Assembly (NCBI GenBank): GCA_016650295.1 | Contig: JAENWA010000023.1 | Span: 1-33,198 of the forward strand | Origin: Desulfuromonadales bacterium | Lineage (GTDB): Bacteria; Desulfobacterota; Desulfuromonadia; Geobacterales; Pseudopelobacteraceae | Direction of reading: 5' to 3' | DNA length: 33,198 nt | In this document: positions 4,667 through 31,333 of the stretch, piece by piece | Position numbering within the stretch: position 1 is the stretch's first letter | Layout: the number at the start of each line of letters is the position of its first letter | Made by a program: the position numbers and the translations under genes | Notes under the pieces: model-generated | What the model was told of the DNA's origin: nothing | Database searches by the model: none | The model's input: only the letters and a program-made list of their open reading frames with translations

Positions 4667-5797
4667 TCACTCCATCTCCACGGCGGCCTTCACAGCCAGC
4701 AACCTGGAATTCCCCTCCGCGAGCGTGGGAACCAGCCAGCCTCCTTCGTCTGATTCGTTCCAGGCATAGATGAGGATGGTTTTTGATTCTGTCGATTCCG
4801 GATATTTTCTGATCCATTCCATGGCAGTAAAAAGATGGATTGCCAGTTCACCCGGAGTCGGCTGGGTATACCAGGGGCCCTTTAGTTTATTGGCCTCTTC
4901 GGGTGTTGTGCGACGCGGGCGATTGTCCCATCCAGCGTTTACTATTGGGATGACCTGTTTTGCCGATGATCTGCAGGCTTCCCAATAATCACGGTTAGCT
5001 TTGGCGAGTTTGAGATAGGGATATTCGATGTCATCACCTTTTTCCGTCAGGCTGTAGGCGCCGATGGCGTCAAAACCGAACCGGTTGGCAAGACTGCCTG
5101 TTTCTCCGATGGAAAACCCCTGGGCGACAATATACGTTTCCGGGAGGCCGACACGGGCGGCAGCCTGATCGAGTTCACCTAAGGCTGCTTTCGCGGCCTC
5201 TTCCGAACCCGCCCATTTTGTAAGTTCATGTGCAGAAAACATATATACCAGTGGGCGCCCGTTGAGCACCTTCTGGTAGGTCGGCTCTTTGAATATCGAC
5301 ACAAGCTGCTGCACGGTCTGTTGCCAATCTTCTTTCTTCCCGAGAATCCCCCCCTGGAGAATCAGGCAGAAATTGAGGCCGGACTTTTTTGTGCTGTCGA
5401 GGTATCGCCGCAATCCATAATTATAACGGTCATAAGGGTCACCCGGTTTGCGCTGGTAATAGACAAAGGCCCAGTAGTCAAGCCCCGCATCCTTGGCATA
5501 GGCAATCTCCTTATCCATCACCTCCTGGCTGTCGGATCGAACCGTTACGCTGCCTTTCAAAGAAACATCGGCATAGAACGGAAGGCGATAGTGCCACTGT
5601 TTCGGTTCAAGATTTTTTTCGTACTTGTTGCCATCGAACCAGGCGTCCCAGCGGATGGCGCCGACAATGGGCGAGGAACTACCCGATTCAGAAATGGGAC
5701 TGGCACCTCGCGCTACGGTAATCGTTCCACAGATGCACAGAAAGAAAATTGCGCTTATCAGCCCGCTGACAATTACCTTGTCAGTATTGATCTTCAT
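4667..5797 (-). CDS. Secreted GH99/WbsX-like protein
   Basis: 376 residues from the ATG at 5797. I prefer this start over an upstream one at 5887 because AGGGGG lies 10 bases before it and the protein then begins with a good signal sequence or membrane anchor (residues about 8-27). The mature region keeps the pattern of the GH99-like/WbsX superfamily: DAWFDG near the start, AGLDYWAFVYY, GRPLVYMFS, GFDAIGAY, NAGWDNRPRR, and near the end AWNESDEGGW in place of the AWNEWGEG-x-HLEPD of the cytoplasmic WbsX proteins in this window. Endo-acting glycosidases such as GH99 endo-alpha-mannosidase belong to this superfamily, so a glycan-cleaving role outside the cytoplasm is plausible but unproven. It is transcribed divergently from the lipoprotein gene. 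Confidence 0.8.
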   Translation of the reverse strand: MKINTDKVIVSGLISAIFFLCICGTITVARGASPISESGSSSPIVGAIRWDAWFDGNKYEKNLEPKQWHYRLPFYADVSLKGSVTVRSDSQEVMDKEIAYAKDAGLDYWAFVYYQRKPGDPYDRYNYGLRRYLDSTKKSGLNFCLILQGGILGKKEDWQQTVQQLVSIFKEPTYQKVLNGRPLVYMFSAHELTKWAGSEEAAKAALGELDQAAARVGLPETYIVAQGFSIGETGSLANRFGFDAIGAYSLTEKGDDIEYPYLKLAKANRDYWEACRSSAKQVIPIVNAGWDNRPRRTTPEEANKLKGPWYTQPTPGELAIHLFTAMEWIRKYPESTESKTILIYAWNESDEGGWLVPTLAEGNSRLLAVKAAVEME

Positions 5798-5840
5798 ATA
5801 AGTAAAACCCCCTGTATAAGAACCAAAATTCAATAATGTC

Positions 5841-5869
5841 TTGTCATTTCGAGATGCATACCCTATAAA
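5841..5869 (+). promoter_or_regulatory. Sigma-70-type promoter for the lipoprotein gene
   Basis: TTGTCA at 5841-5846, a 17-base spacer, then TATAAA at 5864-5869. Both hexamers match the consensus at five of six bases with optimal spacing. The predicted start of transcription is near 5876, leaving a leader of about 30 bases with GAGGAGG at 5890-5896 before the ATG at 5906. Confidence 0.65.
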
Positions 5870-5905
5870 TATCACGTTTAAACACAAACTGAGGAGGAAA
5901 TATTT

Positions 5906-6515: not shown

Positions 6516-7862
6516 ATGACTGACAACCATCCCCTCGTTTATCTTATCATCCTGAACTGGAACGGCAAGACGGATACCCTCGAATGTCTTGCGTCGGTCA
6601 AGTCCATCGACTATCCGGACTTCGAGATCGTCATTGTCGACAACGGCTCCACCGACGGCTCGGAGAAGGCAATCAGGGCGGCTTTTCCCGAGTTAACCTA
6701 TATCCAGACGGGGGAGAATCTGGGCTACGCGGAAGGGAACAATGTCGGAATCCGCTATGCGATGGAGTCCGGTGCTGATTACGTCTTCGTCCTGAACAAC
6801 GACACTACCGTCGATGCTCATATTTTGTCGGCACTTGTGACGGAAGCGGAGAAAAGCCCTAACGCCGCCATTCTCGGACCGAAAATATATTTTTACGACC
6901 GGCCCGATGTGATCAATTCGGCGGGCGGTTCCATCAACAACGATACGTTGGAGCGGGGTCATATCGGCTACGGTACCAAGGACGACGGCTCGGCGCACTC
7001 TATCGTAACATCTGTAGAATGGACCACTGGCTGCGCCATGCTGCTCAGGGTTTCTGCTCTGCGGGAAGTTGGGCTCTTCGATCCGGACTTCTTCCTCATC
7101 TGCGAGGAACTTGACCTCTGCGCTCGGGTCAGGAGACGCGGTCTAGACATCTTGTTCGTCCCAGACGCGAAGCTATGGCACAAGGTGTCGGCGGCGTTTG
7201 AGGGGAACTACTCGCCGGTTTACTGTTATTACTTTTTCCGTAACAGCTTGCTCTACGCGCGCAAGAATTTTCGGGACAGTAGGCTCTCCCTGTACAAACT
7301 GCTTCTGAGGCAGAGTAGAGAGTTCTATCGCCAGTTGGCGAAGTCGGGCGATTTGGACTCCCGAAAGAAGGGGTTTTGCATCCTGATGGGAACCATTCAC
7401 TTTTTTCTTGGTCGTTTCGGGAGAGCACCGGCGTGGGTCTTCAAGGTCAACTTCCCCCGGAAGACGACCGAACTTGTCGAGGAGAGTACGGGGAAAGACC
7501 TTTTCAAAGCGGAAATCAGGTTTAATAAAGTAGAGTTTTCAGGCAAGGCCGGCAACACTTTAACCGTGCCTGTAACGGTCAAAAACCTGAGTGAAGCCAC
7601 GTGGCCTGCGTTTTCGTCTGATGCGGTTCGGCTTTCCTATCATCTGCGTGATGAAAACGGCAAAGCGGTTGCTTGGGACGGCCTGAGAACAACGCTTCCT
7701 GGCAACCTGCGCGTCGGGAAAAGCGCCAAGTTGGATGCGGTTGTGCAATTGCCCGAGAACAGAGGCAGCTATATCCTTGAATGGGACTTGGTGCAGGAGT
7801 CGGTGGCGTGGTTTAGTAGTAAAGGTATGGAAGTTCATCAATGCAAAATACATATAGATTAA
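6516..7862 (+). CDS. GT2 glycosyltransferase with C-terminal Ig-like domain
   Basis: 448 residues. The N-terminal GT-A domain has the VYLIILNWNGK start, the VDNGSTDGS nucleotide-sugar motif, and an N94-N95-D96 metal site. WTTGCAMLLRVSAL and the acidic CEELDLCARVRRRG helix are typical of rhamnosyl-transferase-like GT2 enzymes. A helical stretch near 245-310 is followed by a beta-rich domain (about 330-448) that is clearly homologous to the domain of the preceding lipoprotein (VTVKN-S, LSYHL, WDGLRT, GSYILEWDLV, WF). The domain is attached to an otherwise cytoplasmic enzyme. The start codon has only a poor ribosome site (AAGGT 18 bases upstream). The next gene begins 21 bases after the stop, suggesting co-transcription. 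Confidence 0.9.
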   Translation: MTDNHPLVYLIILNWNGKTDTLECLASVKSIDYPDFEIVIVDNGSTDGSEKAIRAAFPELTYIQTGENLGYAEGNNVGIRYAMESGADYVFVLNNDTTVDAHILSALVTEAEKSPNAAILGPKIYFYDRPDVINSAGGSINNDTLERGHIGYGTKDDGSAHSIVTSVEWTTGCAMLLRVSALREVGLFDPDFFLICEELDLCARVRRRGLDILFVPDAKLWHKVSAAFEGNYSPVYCYYFFRNSLLYARKNFRDSRLSLYKLLLRQSREFYRQLAKSGDLDSRKKGFCILMGTIHFFLGRFGRAPAWVFKVNFPRKTTELVEESTGKDLFKAEIRFNKVEFSGKAGNTLTVPVTVKNLSEATWPAFSSDAVRLSYHLRDENGKAVAWDGLRTTLPGNLRVGKSAKLDAVVQLPENRGSYILEWDLVQESVAWFSSKGMEVHQCKIHID

Positions 7863-7883: not shown

Positions 7884-8906
7884 TTGAAAGTTCATTTTCT
7901 CAACGTTCGCACAATGCACCACTCAACCCATTCCGGTTATGACCGGTTCATGGACTTCATCCCCCATACCCCGTTGCTTTCCTCCCAACAGTGGGAGACG
8001 ATGCCCGAAGATGAACGGAAGCGGGCATATGAGGAGGCCAAGGCTCAGATAAGCTGGTACAACCCGCCTGACCTGGAGATGGAGACCAACGCCAACGCTT
8101 TGAACCCCTGGTTCCATAAACATGTCTGCCATTTTCTTTACGGCGAGAACTCTGTTTTTCATATCAAGAAGTCGCAAAACCCTAAGAAAAAAATCTTCGT
8201 CTCCTTCCACCAGCCCCCACAGGCGCACCAACAATTCATACGGACCCGCGAGCCGCTCAAGGCCATCGACGGAATTGTCGTCGTCAGCACCAACCAGATA
8301 CCGTTTTTCGAGCAGTACGTGGACCGGTCGAAGATTTTGTTCATCCCTCATGGCGTCGATACCGACTTTTTCCGGCCCGACGATTCTGTGCCGAAGGACC
8401 CGAACAGAATTCTCTTCGTGGGGAACTGGCTACGGGACTTCGACACCCTTGTTGCAGTCTCAAAAATCCTGACCGATAAAGCGCCGCAGGTGAAGATCGA
8501 TGTCGTCACCCTGGAGCGGAACAAGCCGCTATTCAATGGGTGCGACAACGTCCGTTTCTTCAGCGGCATTCCGGAAGAGGACCTTCTCCGCAAATACCAG
8601 CAGGCGACCCTGCTTCTCGTCCCGATGAAAGATTGTACCGCCAACAATTCGGTTTTGGAGGGGATGGCCTGTGGGCTTCCCGTCATAACTACCGATATCG
8701 GTGGAATCAGAGATTACGTGAATGAAGAGTGTGCGATACTTTGTCAGCCAGGTGATGCTGACGGTATGGCGGATAGACTGATGCAATTGCTTGGAGATCA
8801 TGCCTGTAAAAAAGAGATGGGAAAAGCTGCGAATAGAAAGTCGGAAGAATTCACATGGCACCGTGTATCCAGAATAATGTTAAGTGCTTATAATGTATCG
8901 TTTTAA
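7884..8906 (+). CDS. GT4-like glycosyltransferase
   Basis: 340 residues from a TTG with CAGGAA about seven bases upstream. Starting there gives the usual first strand KVHFLNVR; the first ATG (7914) would remove it. The C-terminal GT-B half has ILFVGNWLRDFD, a nucleotide-binding loop region, and LEGMACGLPVITTDIGG-x-RDYV. The first glutamate of the usual E-x7-E pair is missing (the region reads KDCTANNSVLEGMA), as in several GT4 subfamilies that keep only the second glutamate. The N-terminal half includes a long stretch rich in His and Trp (about 10-75) that is unusual for GT4. It lies between a GT2 and a membrane GT-C-like protein. Sugar specificity cannot be read from the sequence. Confidence 0.85.
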   Translation: MKVHFLNVRTMHHSTHSGYDRFMDFIPHTPLLSSQQWETMPEDERKRAYEEAKAQISWYNPPDLEMETNANALNPWFHKHVCHFLYGENSVFHIKKSQNPKKKIFVSFHQPPQAHQQFIRTREPLKAIDGIVVVSTNQIPFFEQYVDRSKILFIPHGVDTDFFRPDDSVPKDPNRILFVGNWLRDFDTLVAVSKILTDKAPQVKIDVVTLERNKPLFNGCDNVRFFSGIPEEDLLRKYQQATLLLVPMKDCTANNSVLEGMACGLPVITTDIGGIRDYVNEECAILCQPGDADGMADRLMQLLGDHACKKEMGKAANRKSEEFTWHRVSRIMLSAYNVSF

Positions 8907-10538: not shown

Positions 10539-10603
10539 GCAACATTCATAAGGTATGAGCACTCAGCCAGACTTATGATTCATGCGTAGGAATAAAGGGT
10601 GAT

Positions 10604-12657: not shown

Positions 12658-12659
12658 CA

Positions 12660-13956: not shown

Positions 13957-16900
13957 ATGAACATCTGTCTGATTTCCCAGGAATACCCCCCCGAAACCAA
14001 CCTCGGCGGCATTGCCACCTACACCCAGACCCTCGCCCGCCATCTGGTGACAATGGGACACCGGGTCCACGTACTGACCCATGGCAAGGACCGTGAATAT
14101 ATCGTTGAAGATCTGGGGGTGACGGTACATCGACTGTCGCCGGGCCTCAAGGGTGGGCTGGACGCCCAGGCACGGGCGAACCTTGAACCGTACGACGGGC
14201 TGAATCACTGGATACTCGGTTTCAGCCGCCGGGTTTATGAATACTTTCTGCCGCTGCACGAAAAAGAACGATTCGATGTCATCGAGGCTCCCGACACCTG
14301 CGCCCAGGCGCTCTTTGTCTACAAATTCATCCAGGGACCGAAAAAAATCGTCCGGCTCCATACTCCTTTCTTCTGGGTGCGCCACCTCAATAATATTCCC
14401 GACAGTCCCGAAAACTCGCTCCGCGAGACGCTGGAAAAGGAGCAGGCCTTCGCGGCAACGGACGTTACCTCCCCCACCCATGTCCTGGCCGGGATTGTCG
14501 GTAAGGAGTGGGGAATTGACCCAATCCCGGTGATCCCCAATTTTTTCAGCCTGAACAACTACCGGCCGGACCTGGCGATCTACGATCAGTATCTTCAAGG
14601 TGCGGAATTCCTGCTCTACTACGGCCGTTTCGAATACCGCAAAGGGGTCCATGTTCTCGCTCCGGCTCTGAGAGAAGTACTGACTCGCTACGGAGAGCTG
14701 AAAATTGCCTTCGCCGGTGATGACTCCATGTACAATAACGCCTCCATGAAGGCCGGTATTCAGGAGACGCTGCATGAGTTCTCCGACCGGGTGGTATTCA
14801 TCCCCAATATTCCCCACGACTCTCTATACCCCCTGATAGAGCGGGCCAGACTGGTAATTCTTCCCTCGCTGTGGGAGAACTTCCCCTACGCCTGTCTGGA
14901 AGGGATGGCCCTGGGGAAAGCGGTAATCGCCACCACCGGGAGCGGCTTTTCTGAAATCATCGACGACGGGGTAAACGGCTTCCTGGTTCCGCCGGGAGAT
15001 TCCGGGGCGCTGTCGGATCGGATCGAGGCTTGCCTGGAGCGAGACGATCTGGAGGAGATCGGCGCCATGGCAGCCGAAAAGGTGAAGGTGTTTGCCAATG
15101 ATGCTGTTGTCCCGCAGATGGCAGAGTTCTACGGACAACGAACGGAACGGGGGAAGAAGGGGCTGACAGTCCTCTACCCCACTTCCATGTTTCCCAAGCT
15201 CTCTGAGACGTTCATCCTGGAGCAGATAACGGGTCTAATCGATCTTGGCCATGACGTGAAGATAGTCGCCTTCTACCGCCCCGACGAGAAGGTCTTCCAT
15301 CCCCAGATCGAAAAATACGGTCTTCTGGAAAAGACCCTCTATATCCCGAAACTTGATGCGGACCCCGGATTTGAATTCACCTCCGAGGTAGACGAGTTTC
15401 TTAAAGATGTGGATGTGATCCATTCCCACTTCGCGGCGCTTCCCACCGATTTCGCTCTGCACGCTTCCCGGCGGTTCGGCATTCCGTTTATCTTCACAAC
15501 CCATGCCTACGACATATTCGTTCATGTCACGAAGGAAAAGCTGGCGGAGTATGCAGCGGCTGCGGCGAGGATCATTACCGTTTCCGACTTCAACAAACTA
15601 TACATGCTCGACATGATCGGCGAGGAATACCGGGACAAAATCGACATAATCCGCTGCGGGATCGACGTGTCGCGCTTTGCGCCAGAGGAGCGGCCGGAAC
15701 GCGGACAGGTAACGATCCTCACGACGGGGCGTTTTGTCGAGAAAAAGGGGATCACCTATGCCATTCGTGCCTTTGCCAGGTTGCCGGTCGATTGCCGCGC
15801 CGGATTGCGGATCATTGGCGATGGTCCTCTCAGACAGGAAATAGAAACTACGATAGCTGAATTGAAACTTCAGGACCGCGTCAAACTCCTCGGGGCCTTA
15901 CCCCAGTCAGAAGTCGTCCGGGAGATGCAGAATGCAGATATCTTCGTGCTTCCCTCGGTAACTGCGGCGAACAATGACCGGGAAGGTCTTCCCGTCTCGA
16001 TCCTGGAAGCACAGGCCATGAAACTTCCCGTTGTTTCCACCTTCCACACCGGTATCCCCGAAGGGGTCATTGACGGGGAGACGGGATTTCTTGTTCCCGA
16101 GAAGGATGTGGATACACTGGCCGGGAATCTGCTGGTTCTGATACAGGACCGGGATATCAGACTGGCAATGGGTGAATACGGTCGCAATCATGTGGCTCAA
16201 AATTTCAACATCAGCCGGGAGATCAATAAACTGGAGGGAATTCTGTCCTGCGCCGCAGCGAGGAATGATCACACTGCAATTTCCATGAACAAGAAAATCA
16301 GAGTGCTTTTCGTCGCCCATTCGTCCTATTTTTTCGGAGCTGAACGAAGTTTCCTGTTCATGCTGGAAAACCTGGACCGGCAGAAGTTCGAGCCGATTGT
16401 CGTACTACCGGAAGATTTGCCCGACCAGCCGCTGGGCAAACGTCTCGCGGACCTTGGCATCAGTACCCGGATAATCCACTGCCCGAGCAGGTGGATCGAC
16501 TTTCCTGTCAACGGCGACCCTTTGCAGGAATTTTTCGATGAGATAGAGGTTGTCGGAGAGTTCATAAGGGTGATCCGCGACGAGAAGATCGATTTAGTAT
16601 ATACGAATACTATTACCAAAATATCAGCGGCCATAGCCGCTAAAATAAGCCGGATACCCCACGTATATCATGTCCGGGAAGTCCTTGAGGACCACCCCCT
16701 GCAGGGTTGTTTCCCTACCCATACCATCTTCCGGATAATAGATTGGCTCTCCGACCGTATCATTACGAATTCTGAGTTCGTTTCCCGCCAGTTTGAGGGC
16801 ATTTCCACACGAGGAAAGGTCGCTCATGTCTATAATGCCGTGGATGTTGGCGAGTCTGTTCAGCCGATATGTCCTAGTGCATTCAGGGAGGAGCTGGGAT

Positions 16901-19900
16901 ATTCAGTTGATACGTATCTCATCGGGATTATCGGAAGTGTTCATCGGCACAAAAACCAGGAAGATGTAATCAGGGCGCTCCGCCATGTTCTTGACCAACA
17001 GATTTCGGCAAAGTTGGTGATTGTCGGCCACCCGTTTCACGAGTACCTCATACATCTCCAGTCAGTGGTCGAAGAACTCGGCTTGCAGGAGGACGTCGTA
17101 TTTCTTCCCTTCAGGACAGACATTCTTCCCGTCATTCATGACCTGAATGTGCTCGTCGTGGCATCACTGGCTGAACCCTTTGGAAGGACCACCATTGAAG
17201 CAATGGCCGCCGGGAAGCCCGTGGTTGCGACCAATACCGGCGGTTCCCCTGAGATTGTCTTAGATGGGGTGACTGGTCATCTCGTTCCGGTACATGATCC
17301 GGAAAAGATGGCCAAGGCCCTGCTGGATATCCAGCATGATCCGGTCAAAGCAAAGAGAATGGGAGAGGCGGGGCAACAGAGAATCCGGGATATTTTCAAC
17401 CGTGAAAATTACCATACCGGGATCGAGAATGTTCTTTTACTAGCTGCAAACGATTCTCCAAAACTCGGAATTGAGTCTGTTTCACACGATCCGGGCGCAA
17501 TTGCTAAAGAATTTGAGTCTCTTGTTCCTGAATCGGAAATGGAGCAGTTTCGTCAAGAGGCAATGAAGCTTGTATTGAATCCCCGCGATGAAATTGGAAG
17601 GCAGATAGAATCGGTTCTGCTCGGACCCATGGCAGGTATTTCCGACAGTAAAATAAACTCAACGAGGTCAAACGAAGGATCTATGAACTCTACCACTACA
17701 GCTGTTGAACATCAGCAGCGTACAGCCAGGCTCATTTCATTCTATCTCCCCCAGTTCCATCCAATAGCCGAAAACGACGCTTGGTGGGGGAAAGGGTTTA
17801 CCGAGTGGTCGAACGTCTCAAAAGCGAAACCTCTCTTTCCCGGTCATCGTCAACCACACCTCCCCACCGATCTGGGTTTCTACGATCTGAGACTGCCTGC
17901 CGCTCGCAAAGCCCAGTCTGATCTTGCAAAAGAATATGGAATTGAAGCCTTTTGTTACTGGCACTACTGGTTCCATGGAAAACGGCTTATAGAGCATCCC
18001 TTCAACGAAGTACTCAAGAGTGGCGAACCTGATATCTCCTTCTGTCTGGCATGGGCAAACGAAACCTGGTCGAGAAGATGGCTGGGCGAGGAAAAAGACA
18101 TCCTCATGAAGCAGTCGTATTCTCTGGAAGACGACCTGAACCATGTTCGGTGGCTCCTTCCCGTTTTTGCTGATCCGCGATGCGTGAAGGTGAATGGCAG
18201 GCCGCTGTTCCTGATCTACCGGCCGACAGATCTCCCCGACCCGCAAAGGACGACCGATCTGTTCAGGAGCGAATGTGTTCGGAATGGTCTTCCGGAGCCG
18301 TTTCTCCTCGGCATCAATTCCCATTGCTGGAACCTTGACTGCCGCACGATCGGCTTTGACGGCACGGTCCTTTTTATGCCCCAACTCGGAAACCTTCCCG
18401 AGTTCATGAACGATGATCCGAGTGAATCGAAACGGGAGCGCAATCGTAGATTCGGCGTCGAGAGCGATAAACTCAAGATGTACGACTACGAGGAAGCTCT
18501 CGGCTCCATGCTCGCCAATCGCAAAAAATACGAACACTACGTCCATCCCTCCATCTTTGTCGGCTGGGATAATACGGCGCGCAGAGGCGATAATGGCATC
18601 ATCATCGTCAATAATGAACCGGCCATCTTTGGCAAGAACCTGGCGCAACTGGTTGAAGAGGTGCAGGTAAATTCTCCGGATGAGCGGTTCGTGTTCCTGA
18701 ATGCCTGGAACGAGTGGGCGGAAGGGAACCACCTGGAACCTGACAACTGGACCGGAAAGAGTTTTCTGGAGGAGGTTAAAAAGGCCGCTGGAAGGGAAAC
18801 GGGGGGGGCGTTGGTAACAGCATCTTCATCGATTTCTGTTGCCACGCCTCCGGTTCAGCAGGATTTATCACCTGACAACATCAAGGCCATTGCCTTTTTC
18901 CTTCCTCAATACCACCCCATCCCGGAAAACGACGAATGGTGGGGCAAAGGATTCACCGAGTGGAACAACGTGGTCAACGCCAAGCCGCAGTTTCCCGGCC
19001 ATTACCAGCCGCACCTCCCCGGAGAACTGGGCTTCTATGACCTGCGCCTCCCCGAAGTCCGCAAGGCCCAGGCCGACCTGGCCAGAGAACATGGTATTCA
19101 CGGTTTCTGCTATTACCACTACTGGTTCAACGGCAAGCTCCTCCTGGAAAAACCGCTCCATGACATGCTCGCATCCGGCGAGCCCGATTTCCCCTTCTGC
19201 CTCTGCTGGGCCAACGAGCCGTGGACCCGCGCCTGGGACGGAAGAACAGGTCATGTGCTCGCCGAACAGCACTACGGCGAAGAGGACGACCGGCAGCATA
19301 TCCGCTACCTCTCCCAGTTTTTTCACGACAAACGTTACATCCGGGTAAATGGTAAACCCCTGCTCCTGATCTACCGCGCCCACCACATGCCCGATCCCCA
19401 GAAGGCGGCCGAGGCCATGCGGGACGAGGCGCGAAACATTGGTATCGGCGAGATCTACCTCTGCCGGGTGGAGAGCTTTTCCAACGAGCATACCCACCCC
19501 TCCACCATCGGCTTCGACTCGGCGGTGGAATTCCAGCCCGACTGGACCCGGATCGGCAAAAAATCCTCGAACCCGGTGTACGGAGACCATGCGGTCCATG
19601 GTTACGAGGAGATGGTCAACCGGATGATCGCCAAGAAACGGCCATCCTACAAGCGCTTTCCGTGCGTGACCCCGGCCTGGGACAATTCCAGCCGCCGCAA
19701 GACCCACGCCACCATCTTTACGGGATCAACGCCGCAACTCTATGAAAAATGGCTCTCCAACGCCATTCGTCGCGCCGGCATCGACAACCCCGATGACCGG
19801 ATCGTCTTCATCAATGCCTGGAATGAGTGGGGAGAAGGAAGCCACCTTGAACCGGACCAGGTCCACGGCCGGGCTTACCTGGAAGCGACGAAAAGTGCGA

Positions 19901-20211
19901 TCGACAACCAGGGCAAGATTCTTGATCAATACGACGTATCAACTAGTGCCGATTCACATAACCCGCTGGATCAGCAGTTAGCCGAACATGAGCGGAAGAT
20001 CGCCGAGCGTGACAAAGCACTGGTGGATCGTGAGCGGCAGATAGCGGATCGAGACCATTTGCTGGTCGAGCGGGATCAACTTATGTCCGAGAAGGATCAA
20101 CTGCTTGTCGAGCGGGAACAACGGATTCAAGAACTGCTCGATTCCGCCAGTTGGCGGATAACGAAGCCACTCAGAAAAGGGTTTGACATTCTCATGACGA
20201 AAAAAAAATAA
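13957..20211 (+). CDS. Giant multidomain glycosyltransferase: GT4-GT4-GT4-WbsX-WbsX-coiled coil
   Basis: 2084 residues in one uninterrupted frame; CAGGAG at 13945-13950 precedes the ATG. Domains: GT4-1 about 1-398 (GGIATYTQTLA; E-NFPYACL-E), GT4-2 about 404-764 (LSETFILEQ; E-GLPVSIL-E), GT4-3 about 780-1162 (GAERSFLFMLE; E-PFGRTTI-E). All three keep the E-x7-E pair, so all look active. WbsX-1 spans about 1257-1605 (CYWHYWF, AWNEWAEGNHLEPD) and WbsX-2 about 1641-1983 (CYYHYWF, AWNEWGEGSHLEPD). A charged coiled coil (about 1990-2060) then leads to SWRITKPLRKGFDILM and a lysine tail. Methionines at the GT4-3 and WbsX-1 junctions (777 and 1243) look like relics of separate genes; the second has AAGGA three bases upstream. 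It could add several residues of a repeat unit in one assembly. Cytoplasmic, probably membrane-associated through the tail. Confidence 0.92.
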   Translation: MNICLISQEYPPETNLGGIATYTQTLARHLVTMGHRVHVLTHGKDREYIVEDLGVTVHRLSPGLKGGLDAQARANLEPYDGLNHWILGFSRRVYEYFLPLHEKERFDVIEAPDTCAQALFVYKFIQGPKKIVRLHTPFFWVRHLNNIPDSPENSLRETLEKEQAFAATDVTSPTHVLAGIVGKEWGIDPIPVIPNFFSLNNYRPDLAIYDQYLQGAEFLLYYGRFEYRKGVHVLAPALREVLTRYGELKIAFAGDDSMYNNASMKAGIQETLHEFSDRVVFIPNIPHDSLYPLIERARLVILPSLWENFPYACLEGMALGKAVIATTGSGFSEIIDDGVNGFLVPPGDSGALSDRIEACLERDDLEEIGAMAAEKVKVFANDAVVPQMAEFYGQRTERGKKGLTVLYPTSMFPKLSETFILEQITGLIDLGHDVKIVAFYRPDEKVFHPQIEKYGLLEKTLYIPKLDADPGFEFTSEVDEFLKDVDVIHSHFAALPTDFALHASRRFGIPFIFTTHAYDIFVHVTKEKLAEYAAAAARIITVSDFNKLYMLDMIGEEYRDKIDIIRCGIDVSRFAPEERPERGQVTILTTGRFVEKKGITYAIRAFARLPVDCRAGLRIIGDGPLRQEIETTIAELKLQDRVKLLGALPQSEVVREMQNADIFVLPSVTAANNDREGLPVSILEAQAMKLPVVSTFHTGIPEGVIDGETGFLVPEKDVDTLAGNLLVLIQDRDIRLAMGEYGRNHVAQNFNISREINKLEGILSCAAARNDHTAISMNKKIRVLFVAHSSYFFGAERSFLFMLENLDRQKFEPIVVLPEDLPDQPLGKRLADLGISTRIIHCPSRWIDFPVNGDPLQEFFDEIEVVGEFIRVIRDEKIDLVYTNTITKISAAIAAKISRIPHVYHVREVLEDHPLQGCFPTHTIFRIIDWLSDRIITNSEFVSRQFEGISTRGKVAHVYNAVDVGESVQPICPSAFREELGYSVDTYLIGIIGSVHRHKNQEDVIRALRHVLDQQISAKLVIVGHPFHEYLIHLQSVVEELGLQEDVVFLPFRTDILPVIHDLNVLVVASLAEPFGRTTIEAMAAGKPVVATNTGGSPEIVLDGVTGHLVPVHDPEKMAKALLDIQHDPVKAKRMGEAGQQRIRDIFNRENYHTGIENVLLLAANDSPKLGIESVSHDPGAIAKEFESLVPESEMEQFRQEAMKLVLNPRDEIGRQIESVLLGPMAGISDSKINSTRSNEGSMNSTTTAVEHQQRTARLISFYLPQFHPIAENDAWWGKGFTEWSNVSKAKPLFPGHRQPHLPTDLGFYDLRLPAARKAQSDLAKEYGIEAFCYWHYWFHGKRLIEHPFNEVLKSGEPDISFCLAWANETWSRRWLGEEKDILMKQSYSLEDDLNHVRWLLPVFADPRCVKVNGRPLFLIYRPTDLPDPQRTTDLFRSECVRNGLPEPFLLGINSHCWNLDCRTIGFDGTVLFMPQLGNLPEFMNDDPSESKRERNRRFGVESDKLKMYDYEEALGSMLANRKKYEHYVHPSIFVGWDNTARRGDNGIIIVNNEPAIFGKNLAQLVEEVQVNSPDERFVFLNAWNEWAEGNHLEPDNWTGKSFLEEVKKAAGRETGGALVTASSSISVATPPVQQDLSPDNIKAIAFFLPQYHPIPENDEWWGKGFTEWNNVVNAKPQFPGHYQPHLPGELGFYDLRLPEVRKAQADLAREHGIHGFCYYHYWFNGKLLLEKPLHDMLASGEPDFPFCLCWANEPWTRAWDGRTGHVLAEQHYGEEDDRQHIRYLSQFFHDKRYIRVNGKPLLLIYRAHHMPDPQKAAEAMRDEARNIGIGEIYLCRVESFSNEHTHPSTIGFDSAVEFQPDWTRIGKKSSNPVYGDHAVHGYEEMVNRMIAKKRPSYKRFPCVTPAWDNSSRRKTHATIFTGSTPQLYEKWLSNAIRRAGIDNPDDRIVFINAWNEWGEGSHLEPDQVHGRAYLEATKSAIDNQGKILDQYDVSTSADSHNPLDQQLAEHERKIAERDKALVDRERQIADRDHLLVERDQLMSEKDQLLVEREQRIQELLDSASWRITKPLRKGFDILMTKKK

Positions 20212-20250: not shown

Positions 20251-21087
20251 ATGGAGACTAAATCCGCATATCCGCCAGGGCATTTCTATTCCCCGATTCC
20301 GTGCCTTGACGATGTCCTGCAGAACGAGGAGACGATATTCCATGTTCCGGAAACCATACCGGGTGTGGATCTCAATCCCGAGGGACAATGGGAGCTTGCC
20401 CGGAGATTTGCCGGATTCTACCGCGAGATGCCCTTTCAACCGGAGCAGCAGGAAAACCTCCGCTACTATTTCGAGAACCCGAACTTTTCCTATTTCGATG
20501 CGATTTCGCTCCACTGCATGATCCGCCACGCGAAACCGAAAAGGATCATCGAGGTCGGTTCGGGTTTTTCTTCCTGTGTGACTCTGGATACGAACGATAC
20601 CTTTTTCGACAACAGGATCGACTGCACCTTTATCGAACCATATCCAGATCTCCTTCTATCACTGATGAAACCGGGGGACCGGGAGCAGGTAACGATAATC
20701 CCCTCAAAACTCCAGGACGTACCGACGGAGACCTTTACTGCTCTGGGTCCCGGCGATATCCTCTTCATTGACTCGACTCACGTCTCGAAGATCGATAGCG
20801 ACGTTAACCATGCACTCTTCAGGATTCTTCCATCACTTGCCCCCGGTGTATTCATTCATTTCCATGACATCTTCTACCCCTTCGAGTATCCCAAGCAATG
20901 GATCTATGACGGGAGGGCCTGGAACGAAAACTACATCCTCCGTGCATTTCTCCAGTACAACAGCTCCTTCAATATTGTGTTTTTCAATAATTGGTTCGCA
21001 AGGTTTAACAGACAGTTATTGCAGGATCAGATGCCGCTTGCCCTGAAGAACGCCGGTGGGAGTATATGGCTGCAAAAGGTAGAGTGA
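20251..21087 (+). CDS. Class I SAM-dependent methyltransferase
   Basis: 278 residues, start supported by AGGACC ten bases upstream and 39 bases after the giant gene. The SAM-binding motif I is RIIEVGSGFSS (98-108), motif II region FIEPYPD, and DILFIDSTHVSK (about 169-180) resembles the metal/acid loop of Methyltransf_24-type enzymes. HFHDIFYPFEYP follows and is typical of sugar- or natural-product-modifying members. It probably methylates a sugar of the glycan or a nucleotide sugar. No membrane segment is seen. It closes the biosynthetic block before the first heptamer array of the toxin-antitoxin island. Confidence 0.85.
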   Translation: METKSAYPPGHFYSPIPCLDDVLQNEETIFHVPETIPGVDLNPEGQWELARRFAGFYREMPFQPEQQENLRYYFENPNFSYFDAISLHCMIRHAKPKRIIEVGSGFSSCVTLDTNDTFFDNRIDCTFIEPYPDLLLSLMKPGDREQVTIIPSKLQDVPTETFTALGPGDILFIDSTHVSKIDSDVNHALFRILPSLAPGVFIHFHDIFYPFEYPKQWIYDGRAWNENYILRAFLQYNSSFNIVFFNNWFARFNRQLLQDQMPLALKNAGGSIWLQKVE

Positions 21088-21312: not shown

Positions 21313-21765
21313 ATGGTTGACGAAATCAGTAATCTTCTTGATGTAAGTTCGCTGGAAAAAGCAATGCTTCAGCTTGAACAGAGCCTTGGGTATCTCGACT
21401 CCGAAATGGCCAGCCGGGATGATGGTCTTCGTGCACAGTTTCGGGCCGCGTCTATCCAAGCCTTCGAATATACCTATGAACTCGGTGTCAAGATGCTGCG
21501 CCGCCAGCTTGAACAGATCGTTATCAACCCTGCGGAACTCAGGGAGATGGCGTTCATGGAATTGATTCGCTCGGGCGCCGAGGCCGGTCTGATCCGGGAA
21601 GTAGCTCAATTCCGGGTCTATCGGGAGAAGCGCAACATGACCAGTCACACCTATGACGAGGAGAGGGCGGAAGAGGTGCTGGCAATCCTTCCCGGATTTA
21701 TCCGGGATATGCGATATCTCCTCGACGAGTTGAAACGGCGCAATGATGCAGCTGCTCGGCATTGA
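21313..21765 (+). CDS. hepT: HEPN toxin-like protein, HI0074/HepT type
   Basis: 150 residues, all helical, GGAAGGA about ten bases upstream. It carries the HEPN RNase motif and the HepT extension as R107-x4-H112-x-Y114 (RNMTSHTY). In studied HepT/MntA systems the arginine and histidine form the RNase site and the tyrosine is oligo-adenylylated by the partner, which silences the toxin. The length suits the HI0074-like group (also called nucleotidyltransferase substrate-binding proteins). Its 3' end overlaps the MntA-like gene by 23 bases, so the pair is translationally coupled, here toxin first. Toxicity is inferred from the family; HI0074 itself is less clearly toxic. Confidence 0.87.
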   Translation: MVDEISNLLDVSSLEKAMLQLEQSLGYLDSEMASRDDGLRAQFRAASIQAFEYTYELGVKMLRRQLEQIVINPAELREMAFMELIRSGAEAGLIREVAQFRVYREKRNMTSHTYDEERAEEVLAILPGFIRDMRYLLDELKRRNDAAARH

Positions 21766-22327: not shown

Positions 22328-22351
22328 CTTACAATTGGAGAATAACGTGAT

Positions 22352-23274: not shown

Positions 23275-23360
23275 TGAAGGTTTAAGCGGAAGGCATGACT
23301 TAAGAATATCTATATCAATTATAAAGTAGACATTACAAATTATCTTGCTAAAGTAAATAT

Positions 23361-26446: not shown

Positions 26447-27820
26447 GTGCGCGCCATCGCCTTCTACCTTCCACAGTTCCACCCCATCCCGGAAAATGAC
26501 GCCTGGTGGGGCGAGGGATTCACCGAATGGACCAATGTCCGGAAAGCCGAACCGCGCTTCTCCGGCCATTACCAGCCCCACGTTCCCGGACAGCTCGGCT
26601 ACTACGATCTGCGCGATCCCGAGGTGCGCCAGGCCCAGGCGGAGCTGGCGCGCGCACACGGCATCCACGGCTTCTGCTACTACCATTACTGGTTTGGCGG
26701 CAAACGGCTGTTGGAAACCCCTGTTCATGAGGTTCTGCAGACCGGAAAGCCGGACTTCCCTTTCTGCCTCTGCTGGGCCAATGAAAACTGGACCCGTCGC
26801 TGGGACGGTGAGGAAAGAGAAGTCCTCATGGCCCAGGATCATAGCCATGCGGATGACCTGGCCCACATCGAGAGCCTCTTCCCGGCATTCCGTGACGAAC
26901 GCTACATCCGGGTGAACGGGAAACCGCTGTTTCTCGTTTATAAGACCAACCTGCTGCCCGATCCGAAAAAGACCGCCGAAATCTGGCGTGAGGCGGCACA
27001 CAAGGCGGGGATCGGCGAGATCTACCTGGTCAGGGTCGAGAACTATTTCCAGGGGTATGATCCGTCGCCCATGGAGATCGGTTTTGACGCCGCTGCGGAG
27101 TTTGCCCCGCACTGGGGGTGCTTCGGGGAAAAGGTTTCGGACAAAATCGAGCTGTTTGAAGAGTACCGGGACTGCAATCCTCTCATCTACGACTACGACA
27201 ACATCATGCTTGGAATGCTCGGGAAACCGAAACCGGACTACAAGCTCTTTCGCGGTGTCTTCCCGTCCTGGGACAACTCGGCGCGCCGACTGAACGACCC
27301 GGTCATGTTCGTCAATTCGTCGCCCGAGAAATACGCCTTCTGGCTTTCCCAGATTGCCCGTTACACCTACCAGAATTTTTCAGGGGACGAACAGTTCGTC
27401 TTCATCAATGCCTGGAACGAGTGGGGGGAGGGCTGCCACCTGGAACCGGACGGGAAGTACGGATTACGTCACCTGGAAGCGACCCGCCTGGCCCTCGGTC
27501 TGGCCAGGGATCTCTTCGAGGCGACAGAGGGGATCAAGCAGTCGTCCGGGACTTTCGCCATTTCGCCTGAAAAGTGGTACGAATTACTGGCCGATGTGTA
27601 TCGCGGCAGTCGGAAGCTGTCCGCAGACGAACTGAATATGGTTGCCGCGTTCGGGCCGTACGTCTTCTTCGCCATGGCTCCGATGCTGGACAAGGGTATA
27701 CAGGACCAGTTCAATCTTGCCCTGAATAACAAGGACCGGCAGATTGCCGAACTGTACGACTCGCTGAGCTGGAAGATAACCGCTCCGCTGAGGAAGATTT
27801 TCGACATGTTTTTCAAGTGA
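26447..27820 (+). CDS. WbsX-family protein (subtype B) with C-terminal helical tail
   Basis: 457 residues from a GTG after AAAAGAGA; the protein opens directly with the family's first strand (RAIAFYLPQFHP). The WbsX/GH99-like domain covers about 1-345 with WWGEGFTEW, CYYHYWF, CLCWANENWTRRWDG, RYIRVNGKPLFLVY, GIGEIYLVRVE and INAWNEWGEGCHLEPD. It is closest to the second WbsX domain of the giant protein. About 110 further residues end in SWKITAPLRKIFDMFFK, the same tail as gene 2 and the giant. WbsX proteins occur in O-antigen clusters and are thought to act on sugars in the cytoplasm; activity is not established. The next WbsX gene follows after 32 bases. Confidence 0.88.
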   Translation: MRAIAFYLPQFHPIPENDAWWGEGFTEWTNVRKAEPRFSGHYQPHVPGQLGYYDLRDPEVRQAQAELARAHGIHGFCYYHYWFGGKRLLETPVHEVLQTGKPDFPFCLCWANENWTRRWDGEEREVLMAQDHSHADDLAHIESLFPAFRDERYIRVNGKPLFLVYKTNLLPDPKKTAEIWREAAHKAGIGEIYLVRVENYFQGYDPSPMEIGFDAAAEFAPHWGCFGEKVSDKIELFEEYRDCNPLIYDYDNIMLGMLGKPKPDYKLFRGVFPSWDNSARRLNDPVMFVNSSPEKYAFWLSQIARYTYQNFSGDEQFVFINAWNEWGEGCHLEPDGKYGLRHLEATRLALGLARDLFEATEGIKQSSGTFAISPEKWYELLADVYRGSRKLSADELNMVAAFGPYVFFAMAPMLDKGIQDQFNLALNNKDRQIAELYDSLSWKITAPLRKIFDMFFK

Positions 27821-27852: not shown

Positions 27853-28923
27853 ATGTCAGTTAAACCACGATTGATAGCCTTCCATCTCCCCCAGTTCCAT
27901 CCGATCCCGGAGAACGACGCCTGGTGGGGACAGGGATTCACAGAATGGCGAACCGTTGCCGCTGCGAAACCACTCTTCAAGGGACACAGTCAGCCAAATG
28001 TCCCGGCAGACCTCGGTTTCTACGACCTCCGGCTTCCCGAGGCGCGCAATGCCCAGGCCCTGCTTGCAAAGCAGTACGGCATCGAGGGGTTCTGCTACTG
28101 GCACTACTGGTTTAACGGCAAGCTCCTGCTGGAGACGCCGGTACAGGAGATAATCTCGTCCGGGGAGCCGGATATGCCTTTTTGCCTGGCCTGGGCGAAC
28201 GAGCCATGGTCCAGAAGGTGGCACGGCAGACCCGAGGATATTCTCCAGGACCAGACCTACGGTGGTGTCGAGGACGACCGGCGGCACTTCGAATGGCTCC
28301 TGCCCGCCCTTGCCGATCCGCGGGCGATAAGGATCGATGGGAAGCCGGTCTTTCTGGTCTACAAGGCGAAAAGTCTCCCTGATTGCAGACGGACGACTGA
28401 CCTCTGGCGTGAGCTGGCCGTGAAAAACGGCCTGCCGGGACTGTATCTTCTGTCGATCGAGACGGACGGGACTTTCGGATGGGACCCCCGGCAGGGGGGA
28501 TTCGATGCGGCGGTGGAGTATCAGCCGTACTGGCTTCGGCTGAACGAATACCTGAAGAAAAACTGGCTGCTGGTGGCAAGGAATTACGTGCAATACCGCG
28601 GCCTTTGGGTTCTCGACTACGGGAAACTCTGGCCGCATCTCCTTTCACCGGAAGTCGGCTACCCCCTGTACCGGGGTGTCTGCCCGCGTTGGGACAATAC
28701 CCCGCGAAAAGGACCAAAAGGGATCGTCTTCAGCAACTCGACATCGGAAGAGTACGGCAAGTGGCTAAGCCATACGATTCAACTGATGCAAAACCGCCCG
28801 GAGGAACATCGCATCGTGTTCATCAATGCATGGAACGAATGGGGGGAGGGGAATTACCTGGAGCCTGATCTGAAATACGGCCATGCATATCTTGAGGCGA
28901 CCCGCGCGGCACTGACAGGGTGA
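27853..28923 (+). CDS. WbsX-family protein (subtype A), single domain
   Basis: 356 residues; AAGGA shortly before the ATG. The protein is a bare WbsX/GH99-like domain: FHLPQFHPIPEND, WWGQGFTEW, CYWHYWF, CLAWANEPWSRRW, WLLPALADPR, NGLPGLYL, CPRWDNTPRKG and INAWNEWGEGNYLEPD. These features match the first WbsX domain of the giant protein and not the second. It has no coiled coil and no SW(K/R)IT-x-PLR tail. With the preceding gene it makes a B-A pair, the reverse of the A-B order inside the giant. A GT2 gene starts 32 bases later, consistent with one transcript. Confidence 0.88.
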   Translation: MSVKPRLIAFHLPQFHPIPENDAWWGQGFTEWRTVAAAKPLFKGHSQPNVPADLGFYDLRLPEARNAQALLAKQYGIEGFCYWHYWFNGKLLLETPVQEIISSGEPDMPFCLAWANEPWSRRWHGRPEDILQDQTYGGVEDDRRHFEWLLPALADPRAIRIDGKPVFLVYKAKSLPDCRRTTDLWRELAVKNGLPGLYLLSIETDGTFGWDPRQGGFDAAVEYQPYWLRLNEYLKKNWLLVARNYVQYRGLWVLDYGKLWPHLLSPEVGYPLYRGVCPRWDNTPRKGPKGIVFSNSTSEEYGKWLSHTIQLMQNRPEEHRIVFINAWNEWGEGNYLEPDLKYGHAYLEATRAALTG

Positions 28924-28955: not shown

Positions 28956-29939
28956 ATGGTATCTTCCGAAAGACTGGACAAAAATGTATCCATTGTGCTC
29001 GACCTGGCGGTTCACCTTCATGTCAGGGACATGCTCGAACTGTTCACCACGTTCATTAACAGGGGAAGGGGCGCCGGGAATTACGAACCCGATATACTCG
29101 GTGAGACCTGCGCGCTCTCTTTTGAAAAACAGACCGAACCTCTGGTCAGTATCATCATCCCGGCGTTCAACCAATGGGAATACACCCGCTCCTGCCTCGT
29201 CTCAATCCTGCGAAATACCGCCGATGTTCCCCATGAAATCATCCTGGCCGACGACACTTCCACCGACGAGACGAAACGAGCCGGCGACCTGGTCAGCGGA
29301 ATTACCGTCATCAGGAACGAGCGGAATCTCGGGTTCATTCGCAACTGCAATAATGCGGCATCGAGGGGTGCGGGGAAATATCTTCTTTTCCTGAACAACG
29401 ACGTCATCGTCCGGGAGGGCTGGCTGAAACCCCTCGTGGAGCTCCTGGAGCGGGACCCTGCCGCGGGGATGGCCGGGCCGAAGCTGGTCTATCCGAACGG
29501 TCTGCTGCAGGATGCCGGCGCAATCGTCTGGAGTGACGGGAACGCCTGGAATTACGGAAGATGGGACAATCCGGATAAAACGAAATACAACTATGCGCGG
29601 GAAGCCGATTATGTCTCCGGCGCCTGCATGCTGGTGAGACGGGACCTGTGGGAGGATATAGGGGGATTCGATCTGCGGTACGCACCGGCGTATTACGAGG
29701 ATACCGACCTTGCCTTCGAGATCCGCAGTCGCGGCTACAAGGTGCTCTACCAGCCGAAATCGGCAGTGGTACACTTCGAAGGGATAACGTCCGGGCTGGA
29801 TATACGGAAAGGGGTCAAGAGTTTTCAGGAAGTCAACAGGGAGAAATTCTTCAGGAAGTGGGAAGCGATCCTGAAAAAGGAGCATTTCAGGCCGGGACAC
29901 GTTCATTGTGCGGTCAGGTCTAAAGGCAGTGAATGGTGA
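28956..29939 (+). CDS. GT2 glycosyltransferase
   Basis: 327 residues. After an N-terminal helical stub of about 65 residues, the GT-A domain starts with VSIIIPAFNQWEYT and has ADDTSTDET, NLGFIRNCNNA, the metal motif FLNNDVIV, and YVSGACMLVRRDLWEDIGGFD. The acidic helix is AYYEDTDLAFEIRSRGYK. It resembles the single-domain form of O-antigen/rhamnan GT2 enzymes often found as one half of bifunctional proteins. The stub has no family I recognise and could be the remnant of a fusion. The ATG has only a weak upstream AGG. Heptamer array 6 starts five bases after the stop. Confidence 0.87.
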   Translation: MVSSERLDKNVSIVLDLAVHLHVRDMLELFTTFINRGRGAGNYEPDILGETCALSFEKQTEPLVSIIIPAFNQWEYTRSCLVSILRNTADVPHEIILADDTSTDETKRAGDLVSGITVIRNERNLGFIRNCNNAASRGAGKYLLFLNNDVIVREGWLKPLVELLERDPAAGMAGPKLVYPNGLLQDAGAIVWSDGNAWNYGRWDNPDKTKYNYAREADYVSGACMLVRRDLWEDIGGFDLRYAPAYYEDTDLAFEIRSRGYKVLYQPKSAVVHFEGITSGLDIRKGVKSFQEVNREKFFRKWEAILKKEHFRPGHVHCAVRSKGSEW

Positions 29940-29944
29940 AGAAG

Positions 29945-30105
29945 GGATCGGGAATCGGTGAACGGTGAACGGTGAACGGTGAACGGGTGAACGGTGAATC
30001 GGGAATCGGGGAATCGGGGAATACAGGTTTTGCTGATCCCTGATCCCTGATCCCTGATCCCAGGTACCAGGTCCCGATGGCGGGAATCGGTGAATTGGTG
30101 AATTA
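29945..30105. repeat. Heptamer repeat array 6
   Basis: G-rich arm of GGTGAAC and GGGAATC units (29945-30022), core ACAGGTTTTGCT, C-rich arm of three or more GATCCCT units (30033-30061), then a short second G-rich stretch. A spurious ATG inside the array (30077) is in frame with the next gene. Confidence 0.9.
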
Positions 30106-30130
30106 CAACAGTGAATGGTATTCAGGCATC

Positions 30131-31333
30131 ATGAAAATCCTCTTCGTCAGCCTCTTTTTGCCCCAGGAAAAGGCCTACCACGCCGGCGGTCGCTATGTGT
30201 TCGAACTCCTGCGCCAGCTCTCTCAGCGCCACGAAATCCATCTCGCCACCCGCCTCCAGGATAACGAATATTCCGGTCTGGAGGAGTTGCGCCCCTTCTG
30301 CCGGGAGATTTATCCCTATTCATATCCGGCCAGGGAAAAACGCGGACTGCTTGACAAGATCCGGCTGGCCGGCAATTACATCGGTTTCAGCCGCTTTGCG
30401 GACCGGCTGATCCGGGACGGTGTCTTCGACCTGGTTCAGGTGGAATGGGTTGAAACGGCGCTCTGCATCAGGCGGGGGCGTATCCCCATGGTGCTTGATG
30501 CCCACGATGTAATCTCCAAACCGGCCGGGCGGGCAATGAATCAAAAAACGGGGCTGGGGCGGATTATCGCCCGGCTGCGCTGCCTGCTGGTCAGAAGTGT
30601 GGAAAAAAAGATCATGGGGCGCTTCACGACCATCTTCACCATGTCGGAGTATGACCGGAACTATCTCCACGGCATGCTTCCGGGAGTGGACGCCAGGACG
30701 GTGCCGATCCCGGCCGGATTGGATATCGGCGACCGCAGTTTTGAACGGGAGGCGAATACGCTCCTGTTCCTGGCATCCTACCGATACCGGCCGGTCAACG
30801 TGGCGGCGGCGCTCTGGTTTTGTCGGGAGGTCCTGCCCTTGGTGCGACAGGAGGTTCCCGATGCCAGGTTCATCATCGCCGGCTATGGTCCGCCTGTGGA
30901 GCTGACTGCGCTTGCAGCGGACCCGCTGATCGAGGTGCCGGGTTTCGTGGATGATCTGGAAGCCTGCTACAAAGGGGCTGCGGTCTTTGTTGCGCCCATT
31001 CTGCAAGGGGGGGGCATCATCGTCAAGATCCTCGACGCCCTGGCCGCCGGTACGCCGGTGGTGACGACCACCTTCGGCAACGAGGGGATCGGCGGGACGC
31101 CGGGTAGGGACCTGCTGGTGGCGGATGATCCGCAGGCATTTGCAGCGGCGGTCATTGCTATCCTGCGTGACCCCGGGTTGGCGGAGCGGTTGACGGAGAA
31201 TGGCCGTGCTTTTGTTGCGGAGCATTACGGCCTGGACGCGGTTCTGGCGAAGATTGAAACCATTTACGGGGAACTGGTGCGGAAACCGGGAAGCGGGAAC
31301 CGTAAAGACGTAAAAGCTTTTACTGATCCCTGA
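30131..31333 (+). CDS. GT4-like glycosyltransferase with repeat-encoded C-terminus
   Basis: 400 residues from the ATG at 30131. This start gives the usual first strand MKILFVSLFLP; an in-frame ATG at 30077 lies in the repeat and adds unrelated residues. GT-B features: HAGGRYVFELLRQLS, DAHDV, FLASYRYRPN-like NVAAALWF, and GGGIIVKILDALAAGTPVVTT followed by GNEGI. The canonical first glutamate of E-x7-E is replaced, as in a common GT4 subfamily with K-(I/L)-x-(D/E)-A-L-A. The last 17 residues (from KPGSGNRK to the stop) are encoded by heptamer array 7. It is likely cytoplasmic, adding a sugar to the same glycan. It converges on the TPR gene. Confidence 0.87.
   Translation: MKILFVSLFLPQEKAYHAGGRYVFELLRQLSQRHEIHLATRLQDNEYSGLEELRPFCREIYPYSYPAREKRGLLDKIRLAGNYIGFSRFADRLIRDGVFDLVQVEWVETALCIRRGRIPMVLDAHDVISKPAGRAMNQKTGLGRIIARLRCLLVRSVEKKIMGRFTTIFTMSEYDRNYLHGMLPGVDARTVPIPAGLDIGDRSFEREANTLLFLASYRYRPVNVAAALWFCREVLPLVRQEVPDARFIIAGYGPPVELTALAADPLIEVPGFVDDLEACYKGAAVFVAPILQGGGIIVKILDALAAGTPVVTTTFGNEGIGGTPGRDLLVADDPQAFAAAVIAILRDPGLAERLTENGRAFVAEHYGLDAVLAKIETIYGELVRKPGSGNRKDVKAFTDP

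Follow-up and report, generated by a model that had tools for sequence, protein, structure and literature searches.

The window analysed here, one entire contig of 33,198 bases in the 4.07 megabase draft genome of a Desulfuromonadales bacterium (JAENWA010000023.1), carries a gene whose 2084-residue product joins three glycosyltransferase family 4 (GT4) modules, two WbsX modules, a coiled coil and a short C-terminal tail. The gene is one uninterrupted reading frame of 2084 codons from ATG to TAA in which all modules are complete, and AGGAG lies 7 nucleotides (nt) 5' of the ATG. Its features, with module borders drawn by ourselves, are the following (GC3 is the GC content at third codon positions).

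13957..20211, + strand: 2084-residue protein GT4-GT4-GT4-WbsX-WbsX-coiled coil-tail (open reading frame and Pfam)
13957..15150, + strand: GT4 module 1 (GT4-1; Pfam; E-x7-E at residue 307)
15151..16272, + strand: GT4 module 2 (GT4-2; Pfam; E-x7-E at residue 676)
16285..17466, + strand: GT4 module 3 (GT4-3; Pfam; E-x7-E at residue 1073)
17467..17718, + strand: linker, about 84 residues long, where GC3 is lowest (0.39; codon composition)
17731..18774, + strand: WbsX module 1 (WbsX-1; PF14307, 444 bits; E-W-x-E pair E1586/E1589)
18889..19890, + strand: WbsX module 2 (WbsX-2; PF14307, 469 bits; E-W-x-E pair E1957/E1960; predicted fold of glycoside hydrolase family 99, GH99)
19963..20139, + strand: coiled-coil helix (residues 365-423 of the AlphaFold2 model)
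20143..20208, + strand: C-terminal tail, SASWRITKPLR followed by a basic helix (motif and AlphaFold2 model)

Pfam recovered three Glycos_transf_1/Glyco_transf_4 stretches and two WbsX stretches (PF14307). The whole protein scored 899.6 bits against PF14307 (cut-off 25.1), and each WbsX module taken separately matched the full profile above the curated cut-off. The E-x7-E pair by which we recognised GT4 enzymes is present once in each GT4 module, and the WNEW(A/G)EG motif of the WbsX modules occurs as WNEWAEG at residue 1584 and WNEWGEG at residue 1955. A preliminary description, made from the sequence alone, had proposed three intact GT4 and two intact WbsX modules with a coiled coil and a basic tail in a single undecayed frame, with all E-x7-E pairs and both WNEW(A/G)EG motifs preserved; the open frame, the Pfam matches, the motifs and a structural model bear this out. 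In the AlphaFold2 model of residues 1639-2084 (mean predicted local distance difference test score 87.3), a barrel-type domain comes first, then a helix of 59 residues and, after a short interruption, a last helix at the C-terminus. All three GT4 modules matched solved GT4-type enzymes in a structure-sequence search; the top match of GT4-2 was 3oka (67 bits), a mannosyltransferase that depends on GDP-mannose, although the donor of this module cannot be deduced from that match. We conclude that the 2084-residue protein is genuine and undamaged; fused assembly proteins of its general kind are frequent, but it is a rare form among them.

The other genes of the contig that bear on its function are listed below.

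3..1229, + strand: Wzt, ATP-binding cassette (ABC) transporter ATPase with a Wzt_C carbohydrate-binding domain (Pfam; 5' end beyond the contig)
1286..3913, + strand: GT99 (WbbB-like) chain terminator of 875 residues with the tail SKSWKITAPLR at 3842-3874 (Pfam and match to solved WbbB)
4667..5887, - strand: secreted-looking distant WbsX/GH99 relative with WNESDEGG (sequence)
6516..7862, + strand: GT2 with an extra C-terminal domain (Pfam)
7884..8906, + strand: separate GT4 (Pfam; a 62% identical relative is fused behind WbsX in Geomonas)
20251..21087, + strand: Methyltransf_24 protein, directly 3' of the large gene (Pfam)
26447..27820, + strand: separate WbsX protein ending in the tail SLSWKITAPLR at 27761-27793 (Pfam and motif)
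27853..28923, + strand: separate WbsX protein without tail (Pfam)
28956..29939, + strand: GT2 (Pfam)
30077..31333, + strand: GT4 (Pfam)

Besides the large protein, the contig thus codes for five proteins with GT2 or GT4 matches and two WbsX proteins. The Wzt_C domain scored 38.7 bits (cut-off 30.4). The GT99 match covers residues 4-393 of the 875-residue protein and is followed by about 400 residues, up to about residue 850, that we judged by composition to be coiled coil. This protein matched solved WbbB (8CSE) with 217 bits, and the alignment retains Glu158, Asp232 and His265 (the index in the 8CSE chain being one higher than in the paper), which are the catalytic residues of WbbB, the enzyme of entry 8CSE (PMC9587256). 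Judged by its gene content, this is a polysaccharide locus of the ABC-transporter type. The neighbouring genes support the role in glycan assembly that the preliminary description had assigned to the locus, and its suggestion that the large protein makes most of a repeat unit appears plausible.

We searched other genomes with profiles built from the domains of the window, partly with plain BLAST, and checked 20 proteins or protein parts, some of them overlapping, with Pfam; in all counts closely related genomes were counted separately. WbsX was found in 45 of 277 genomes of the class and in 48 of 395 genomes of a phylum sample, two sets that overlap. Open frames with WbsX in the phylum sample reached 3708 residues, and the frame of the window was the only one in both sets to contain two WbsX domains; in genome G525, two partial WbsX stretches together make up one domain. 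A homology search recovered 88 WbsX-bearing open reading frames in 80 loci; an additional domain or a tail was detected in 24 of these frames, and two WbsX domains in none. In the literature we found no description of the GT4x3-WbsXx2 architecture, most subscription papers being outside the coverage. The combination had been presented as one not recognised from earlier descriptions: it was indeed seen nowhere else in these genomes, although large fusions of WbsX with glycosyltransferases are frequent. The exact combination of modules is therefore new to these searches, whereas the general design is already known. Among the other large fusions, WbsX frames of 3699 and 3616 residues with several glycosyltransferase domains lie at L198:5040-16139 (-) and L197:2850-13700 in other genomes of the phylum, and a Candidatus Methanoperedenaceae archaeon encodes a 2281-residue protein (L183:7502-14347) with a Sulfatase-family N-terminus followed by WbsX, GT4, GT2 and GT4.

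The nearest relatives of the five modules among the fetched loci lay in different proteins. Those of GT4-1 (55% identity, to the first module of Geomonas multi-glycosyltransferase proteins) and GT4-2 (39%) were both in one Geomonas protein, that of GT4-3 was a separate tail-bearing GT4 gene of 514 residues in genome G212 (49%), that of WbsX-1 a separate gene in genome G261 (68%) and that of WbsX-2 an 899-residue protein in genome G273 (64%). GC3 ranged from 0.57 to 0.76 in the five modules vs 0.39 in the linker before WbsX-1. The preliminary description had read a fusion of formerly separate genes from internal methionines. The module comparison and GC3 agree with a fusion but the methionines are weak evidence for it, M777 having no Shine-Dalgarno sequence at the usual distance and M1243 only a possible AAGGA; we thus set that argument aside and used the comparison of modules instead.

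A recent tandem duplication of WbsX was also rejected, because the two modules share 46% identity and are separated into distinct major branches when 127 WbsX domains are placed in one tree. WbsX-1 belongs to a clade of ten members (support 0.987). In five of the nine other members (G261, L119 from Sulfuricellaceae, L120 from a cyanobacterium, and L154 and L156 from Flavobacterium), a second WbsX gene directly adjoins the first, with spacings from a 23-nt overlap to a 26-nt gap. This second WbsX is closer to WbsX-2 than to WbsX-1 in all five, and the order is that of the window in four and reversed in G261. The remaining four (L138, L151, L166, L139) have no directly adjoining WbsX, and L139 has a GT4-WbsX frame about 740 nt upstream. 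As adjoining genes of the WbsX-1 and WbsX-2 types recur in other genomes, the two-WbsX fusion seems to have arisen by in-frame joining of two genes that repeatedly occur as neighbours. Similarly, modules encoded by two genes in Geomonas azotofigens (GT4-GT4-GT2-tail and GT2-GT4-WbsX-tail) have their counterparts in one 2294-residue protein in Geomonas paludis. Such comparisons show the fusion state to be labile.

We aligned 39 of 43 WbsX domains, dropping near-identical Geomonas copies, and compared the resulting profile with the Protein Data Bank (PDB). GH99 entries were the top eight matches (best E-value 3.8e-4, third 0.019) and the next sequence followed at 1.2; the same search with a single WbsX sequence gave no credible match. 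The profile aligned to BxGH99 in three collinear blocks; of these, the leading two were very weak, and the third placed the WbsX 'NEWaEG' on the GH99 'NEWHEG'. With the predicted model of WbsX-2, Foldseek returned GH99 entries at ranks 1-37, and VIA-align gave Z scores of 23.2-25.9 for GH99 chains, 19.3-20.7 for GH71-type structures and at most 16 for the other rows among the matches listed, with 13-19% identity in the structural alignments to GH99. The predicted model, which covers WbsX module 2 only, thus has the (beta/alpha)8 fold of GH99.

The sequence E-W-[A/G]-E was found in all 39 WbsX domains (A in 29, G in 10) and corresponds to the GH99 motif E-W-[H/G]-E, which bears the catalytic pair E404/E407 in MANEA (PMC11025385). 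The H[I/L]EPY motif of GH99 was present in none of the 39, and we therefore filed WbsX as GH99-like in fold and not as a member of the family. Since glutamates are absent from 5ngw, the PDB entry that matched best, where the alignment places the E-W-x-E positions, the fold alone is no proof of catalysis by this pair. WbsX is thus predicted to be a GH99-type barrel with the GH99 catalytic pair and not a classical transferase fold, so that counting five transferases in the large protein is unproven. The Pfam name of PF14307 says glycosyltransferase, unlike the predicted fold; in genome annotations WbsX proteins presumably often appear as 'glycoside hydrolase family 99-like'. Relatives of WbsX were annotated as transferases in papers on Plesiomonas O-antigens, in O66 together with wzm/wzt and in O37 with wzx/wzy (PMC6467956, PMC9723277). 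In Burkholderia gladioli R1879, nonsense (residue 419) and frameshift (residue 1346) mutants of wbsX resist a phage that binds lipopolysaccharide (LPS) (PMC13391952), which gives genetic support to the importance of a large WbsX protein for O-antigen.

The secreted-looking relative at 4667..5887 (-) adjoins the cytoplasmic WbsX cluster and retains the E-x-x-E spacing within WNESDEGG; a 51% identical gene lies in the matching Geomonas cluster, and no solved structure matched it at E < 0.4.

The tail motif S-x-S-W-[KR]-x-T-x-P-L-R recurs on three proteins of the cluster (the 2084-residue protein, the GT99 protein and one WbsX protein), and the tail profile has exactly three matches in this genome, all in this cluster. 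What had been described as a basic tail is present, but it is not merely basic: it is a module common to other proteins, with profile matches in 51 of the 277 class genomes. Sixteen of 29 fetched loci contained 32 tail-bearing proteins, 31 of them with a net positive charge in the tail. When 24 of the 32 tails were aligned (near-identical Geomonas copies being dropped), S42, S44, W45, T48, P50 and R52 were invariant, and these positions lie beyond the coil. A PDB search with the tail profile retrieved coiled coils, many of them designed, which were matched by the coil half (best 60 of 79 matches). No text in the literature search contained any of six spelled-out tail variants, in those spellings.

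The tail was associated with the Wzt_C domain within the class. We retained 91 of 107 matches (E<=1e-6, 16 weaker rows being left out), which correspond to 55 loci in 49 genomes; 19 loci had two or more, and at least 46 of the 55 were within 30 kilobases (kb) of Wzt_C. We also compared 44 WbsX loci, using one row per locus and leaving out second rows and weak or partial rows. A Wzt_C match was near 17 of the 18 WbsX loci that had a tail no more than 30 kb away vs 7 of the 26 that had none, among the matches listed (Fisher p 8e-6, an optimistic value because related genomes are counted separately). In the reverse direction, a tail was near only 46 of 150 Wzt_C loci, again among the matches listed. 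Outside the class, tails occurred in 14 of 50 genomes, a figure that is not a prevalence because the set (50 of 80 loci) was chosen by hand and includes all six non-Geomonas loci already known to bear the tail.

The domains that precede the tail, via coil-like stretches, are unlike one another: GT99 or Capsule_synth (the window, G205, G182), GT4, GT2 and WbsX, as well as methyltransferases (G067 twice, G091, L162) and a sulfotransferase (L141). In five proteins (two in G067, and those of G091, G182 and L162) the tail lies inside the chain, with a likely terminator (methyltransferase or Capsule_synth) and coil on one side and WbsX, accompanied by RgpF or by GT4 and GT2, on the other. The tail may hold neighbouring chain-building enzymes together. 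At L196:6876-11189, in genome G266, the gene for Wzt adjoins one for a WbbB-like fusion of GT99 with GT4 that has no tail.

In the known ABC-dependent O-polysaccharide systems (PMC11231755), the polymerase modules reside in one or several proteins, a coiled coil with the terminator at its distal end acts as the ruler, and the Wzt domain reads the capped end. The locus of the window shows this same division of labour. The C-terminus of WbdD contains an amphipathic membrane helix and a polymerase-binding region (PMC11231755, PMC3447403). We consider it reasonably likely that the 2084-residue protein is a WbdA/WbbB-like polymerase of several modules for a surface polysaccharide that depends on an ABC transporter and is probably an O-antigen, with docking through coil and tail and capping by GT99 as proposed additions; it probably builds much of a surface sugar chain. 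Assembly would take place in the cytoplasm on a lipid carrier, each module making one linkage. The coiled coil and tail would recruit the protein to the membrane and place it beside the other tail-bearing enzymes. Among these, the GT99 protein would gauge the chain with its long coiled coil and cap it with 3-deoxy-D-manno-oct-2-ulosonic acid (Kdo), and the capped end would be recognised by Wzt for export. For WbsX, bond making is the favoured activity, as suggested by the several unlike modules per locus and by their placement on the polymerase side. More tentatively, and with rather low expectation, we suggest that WbsX forms bonds with its GH99 barrel and E-W-x-E pair, possibly via a 1,2-anhydro sugar inside a cytoplasmic polymerase, and at the same time that the tail serves quite generally as a docking or membrane module, so far undescribed, which gathers the polymerases and terminators of ABC-exported glycans into one machine.

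Several observations weigh against this polymerase model. A hydrolase-type fold is unexpected inside a polymerase, and we found no enzymology or biochemistry of any WbsX domain in the literature, again with most subscription papers outside the coverage. Neither Wzm nor sugar-nucleotide genes were recognised on the contig, which starts inside wzt and was the only contig searched for them, and GT99 occurred in only 2 of the 277 class genomes. By hydrophobic moment, only 7 of the 32 tail helices exceeded shuffled versions of themselves in amphipathicity (<0.05). The link to Wzt_C is weaker outside the class, where 10 of 20 tail loci, some on short contigs, had Wzt_C within 30 kb. The tail is also not obligatory, since a Wzt-GT99 pair occurs without a tail match in G266, a genome from the same family.

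The same data could be explained in other ways. The GT4 modules might polymerise while the WbsX modules act as cytoplasmic GH99-type endo-glycosidases or transglycosidases, trimming or rearranging the lipid-linked chain for editing or length control. The predicted fold and the E-W-x-E motif in all 39 domains speak for such trimming, but the H[I/L]EPY motif is missing from every one of them, four mutually distant WbsX modules in one cluster are more readily explained if each serves one linkage than if several trim the chain, and WbsX stands on the polymerase side of the fusions of terminator, ruler and polymerase; we regard this explanation as unlikely. To the same degree we doubt that the product is a capsule, an exopolysaccharide or a protein-linked glycan and not the O-antigen of LPS, as the pairing of a GT99 terminator with the carbohydrate-binding domain of Wzt is what is known for the O12 O-antigen. 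Still less probable is that the tail is the mere natural end of any coiled coil: its coil half does match coiled coils in the PDB, but the invariant residues lie beyond the coil, and within one locus the motif is shared by proteins whose catalytic domains are unrelated. Finally, the fusion could be an assembly or frame artefact joining separate genes, in line with the draft state of the contig, the GC3 differences between modules and the uniqueness of the combination in the searched genomes. We consider this very improbable in view of the 2084 open codons with each module complete, of comparable fusions elsewhere such as the 2294-residue protein of Geomonas paludis, and of unfused genes of both WbsX types that directly adjoin in other genomes.

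The polymerase model can be set beside several known systems. WbdA and WbdD (Escherichia coli O9a, Klebsiella pneumoniae O3/O5) similarly pair a multi-module mannosyltransferase polymerase, of two or three modules, with a coiled-coil terminator (PMC11231755, PMC3447403), and the WbdD C-terminus, with its membrane helix and polymerase recruitment site, may be the natural comparison for the tail; unlike them, the polymerase of the window adds two WbsX modules and its own coiled coil and tail, and its terminator is GT99 and not a methyltransferase/kinase. WbbB (Raoultella terrigena and K. pneumoniae O12, GT99-GT102-GT103) shares the GT99 beta-Kdo terminator with its three catalytic residues, but joins polymerase and terminator in one chain where the window has two proteins. 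In ORF6 of K. pneumoniae O7 (methyltransferase-kinase, coiled coil and two GT2), terminator, ruler and polymerase modules are likewise variably distributed, and interactions were shown by its authors; the accessible text describes no WbsX, and the glycosyltransferase families differ (PMC11231755). The GH99 endo-alpha-mannosidases (BtGH99, BxGH99, human MANEA) resemble WbsX in predicted fold and E-W-x-E motif and differ from it by their low sequence identity, by H[I/L]EPY and by the location of WbsX inside glycan-assembly proteins. The closest fused assembly protein in design, that of Geomonas paludis (GT4-GT4-GT2-GT2-GT4-WbsX-tail), has the same tail and related modules, but a single WbsX together with two GT2 where the 2084-residue protein has two WbsX. 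If the polymerase model is true, the principle of WbdA and WbbB (several catalytic modules per chain, a coiled-coil ruler and a cap read by the exporter) extends to a five-module enzyme with WbsX. Two questions would become testable, the task of a GH99-like fold in a polymerase and the way in which separately encoded modules of ABC-exported glycans meet. The tail is recognisable in the bare sequence and could serve to find such machines; it is, with the GH99-like chemistry of WbsX, the most interesting part of the system.

Some other genes of the cluster deserve mention. The C-terminal domain of the GT2 protein at 6516-7862 (+), of about 120 residues, is 34% identical (E 3e-21) to the adjoining small lipoprotein-like protein at 5906-6436 (+). 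A hydrophobic protein without Pfam match, a flavin adenine dinucleotide (FAD) protein, a GT2 and an LPG_synthase_TM protein follow one another at 9012-13676 (+), and this series could possibly be a lipid-linked side-branch or decoration module. Inserted within the glycan cluster, 21313-24638 (+) encodes a small NTP_transf_2 nucleotidyltransferase with a small upstream open reading frame, and an AAA_14/DUF4143 ATPase.

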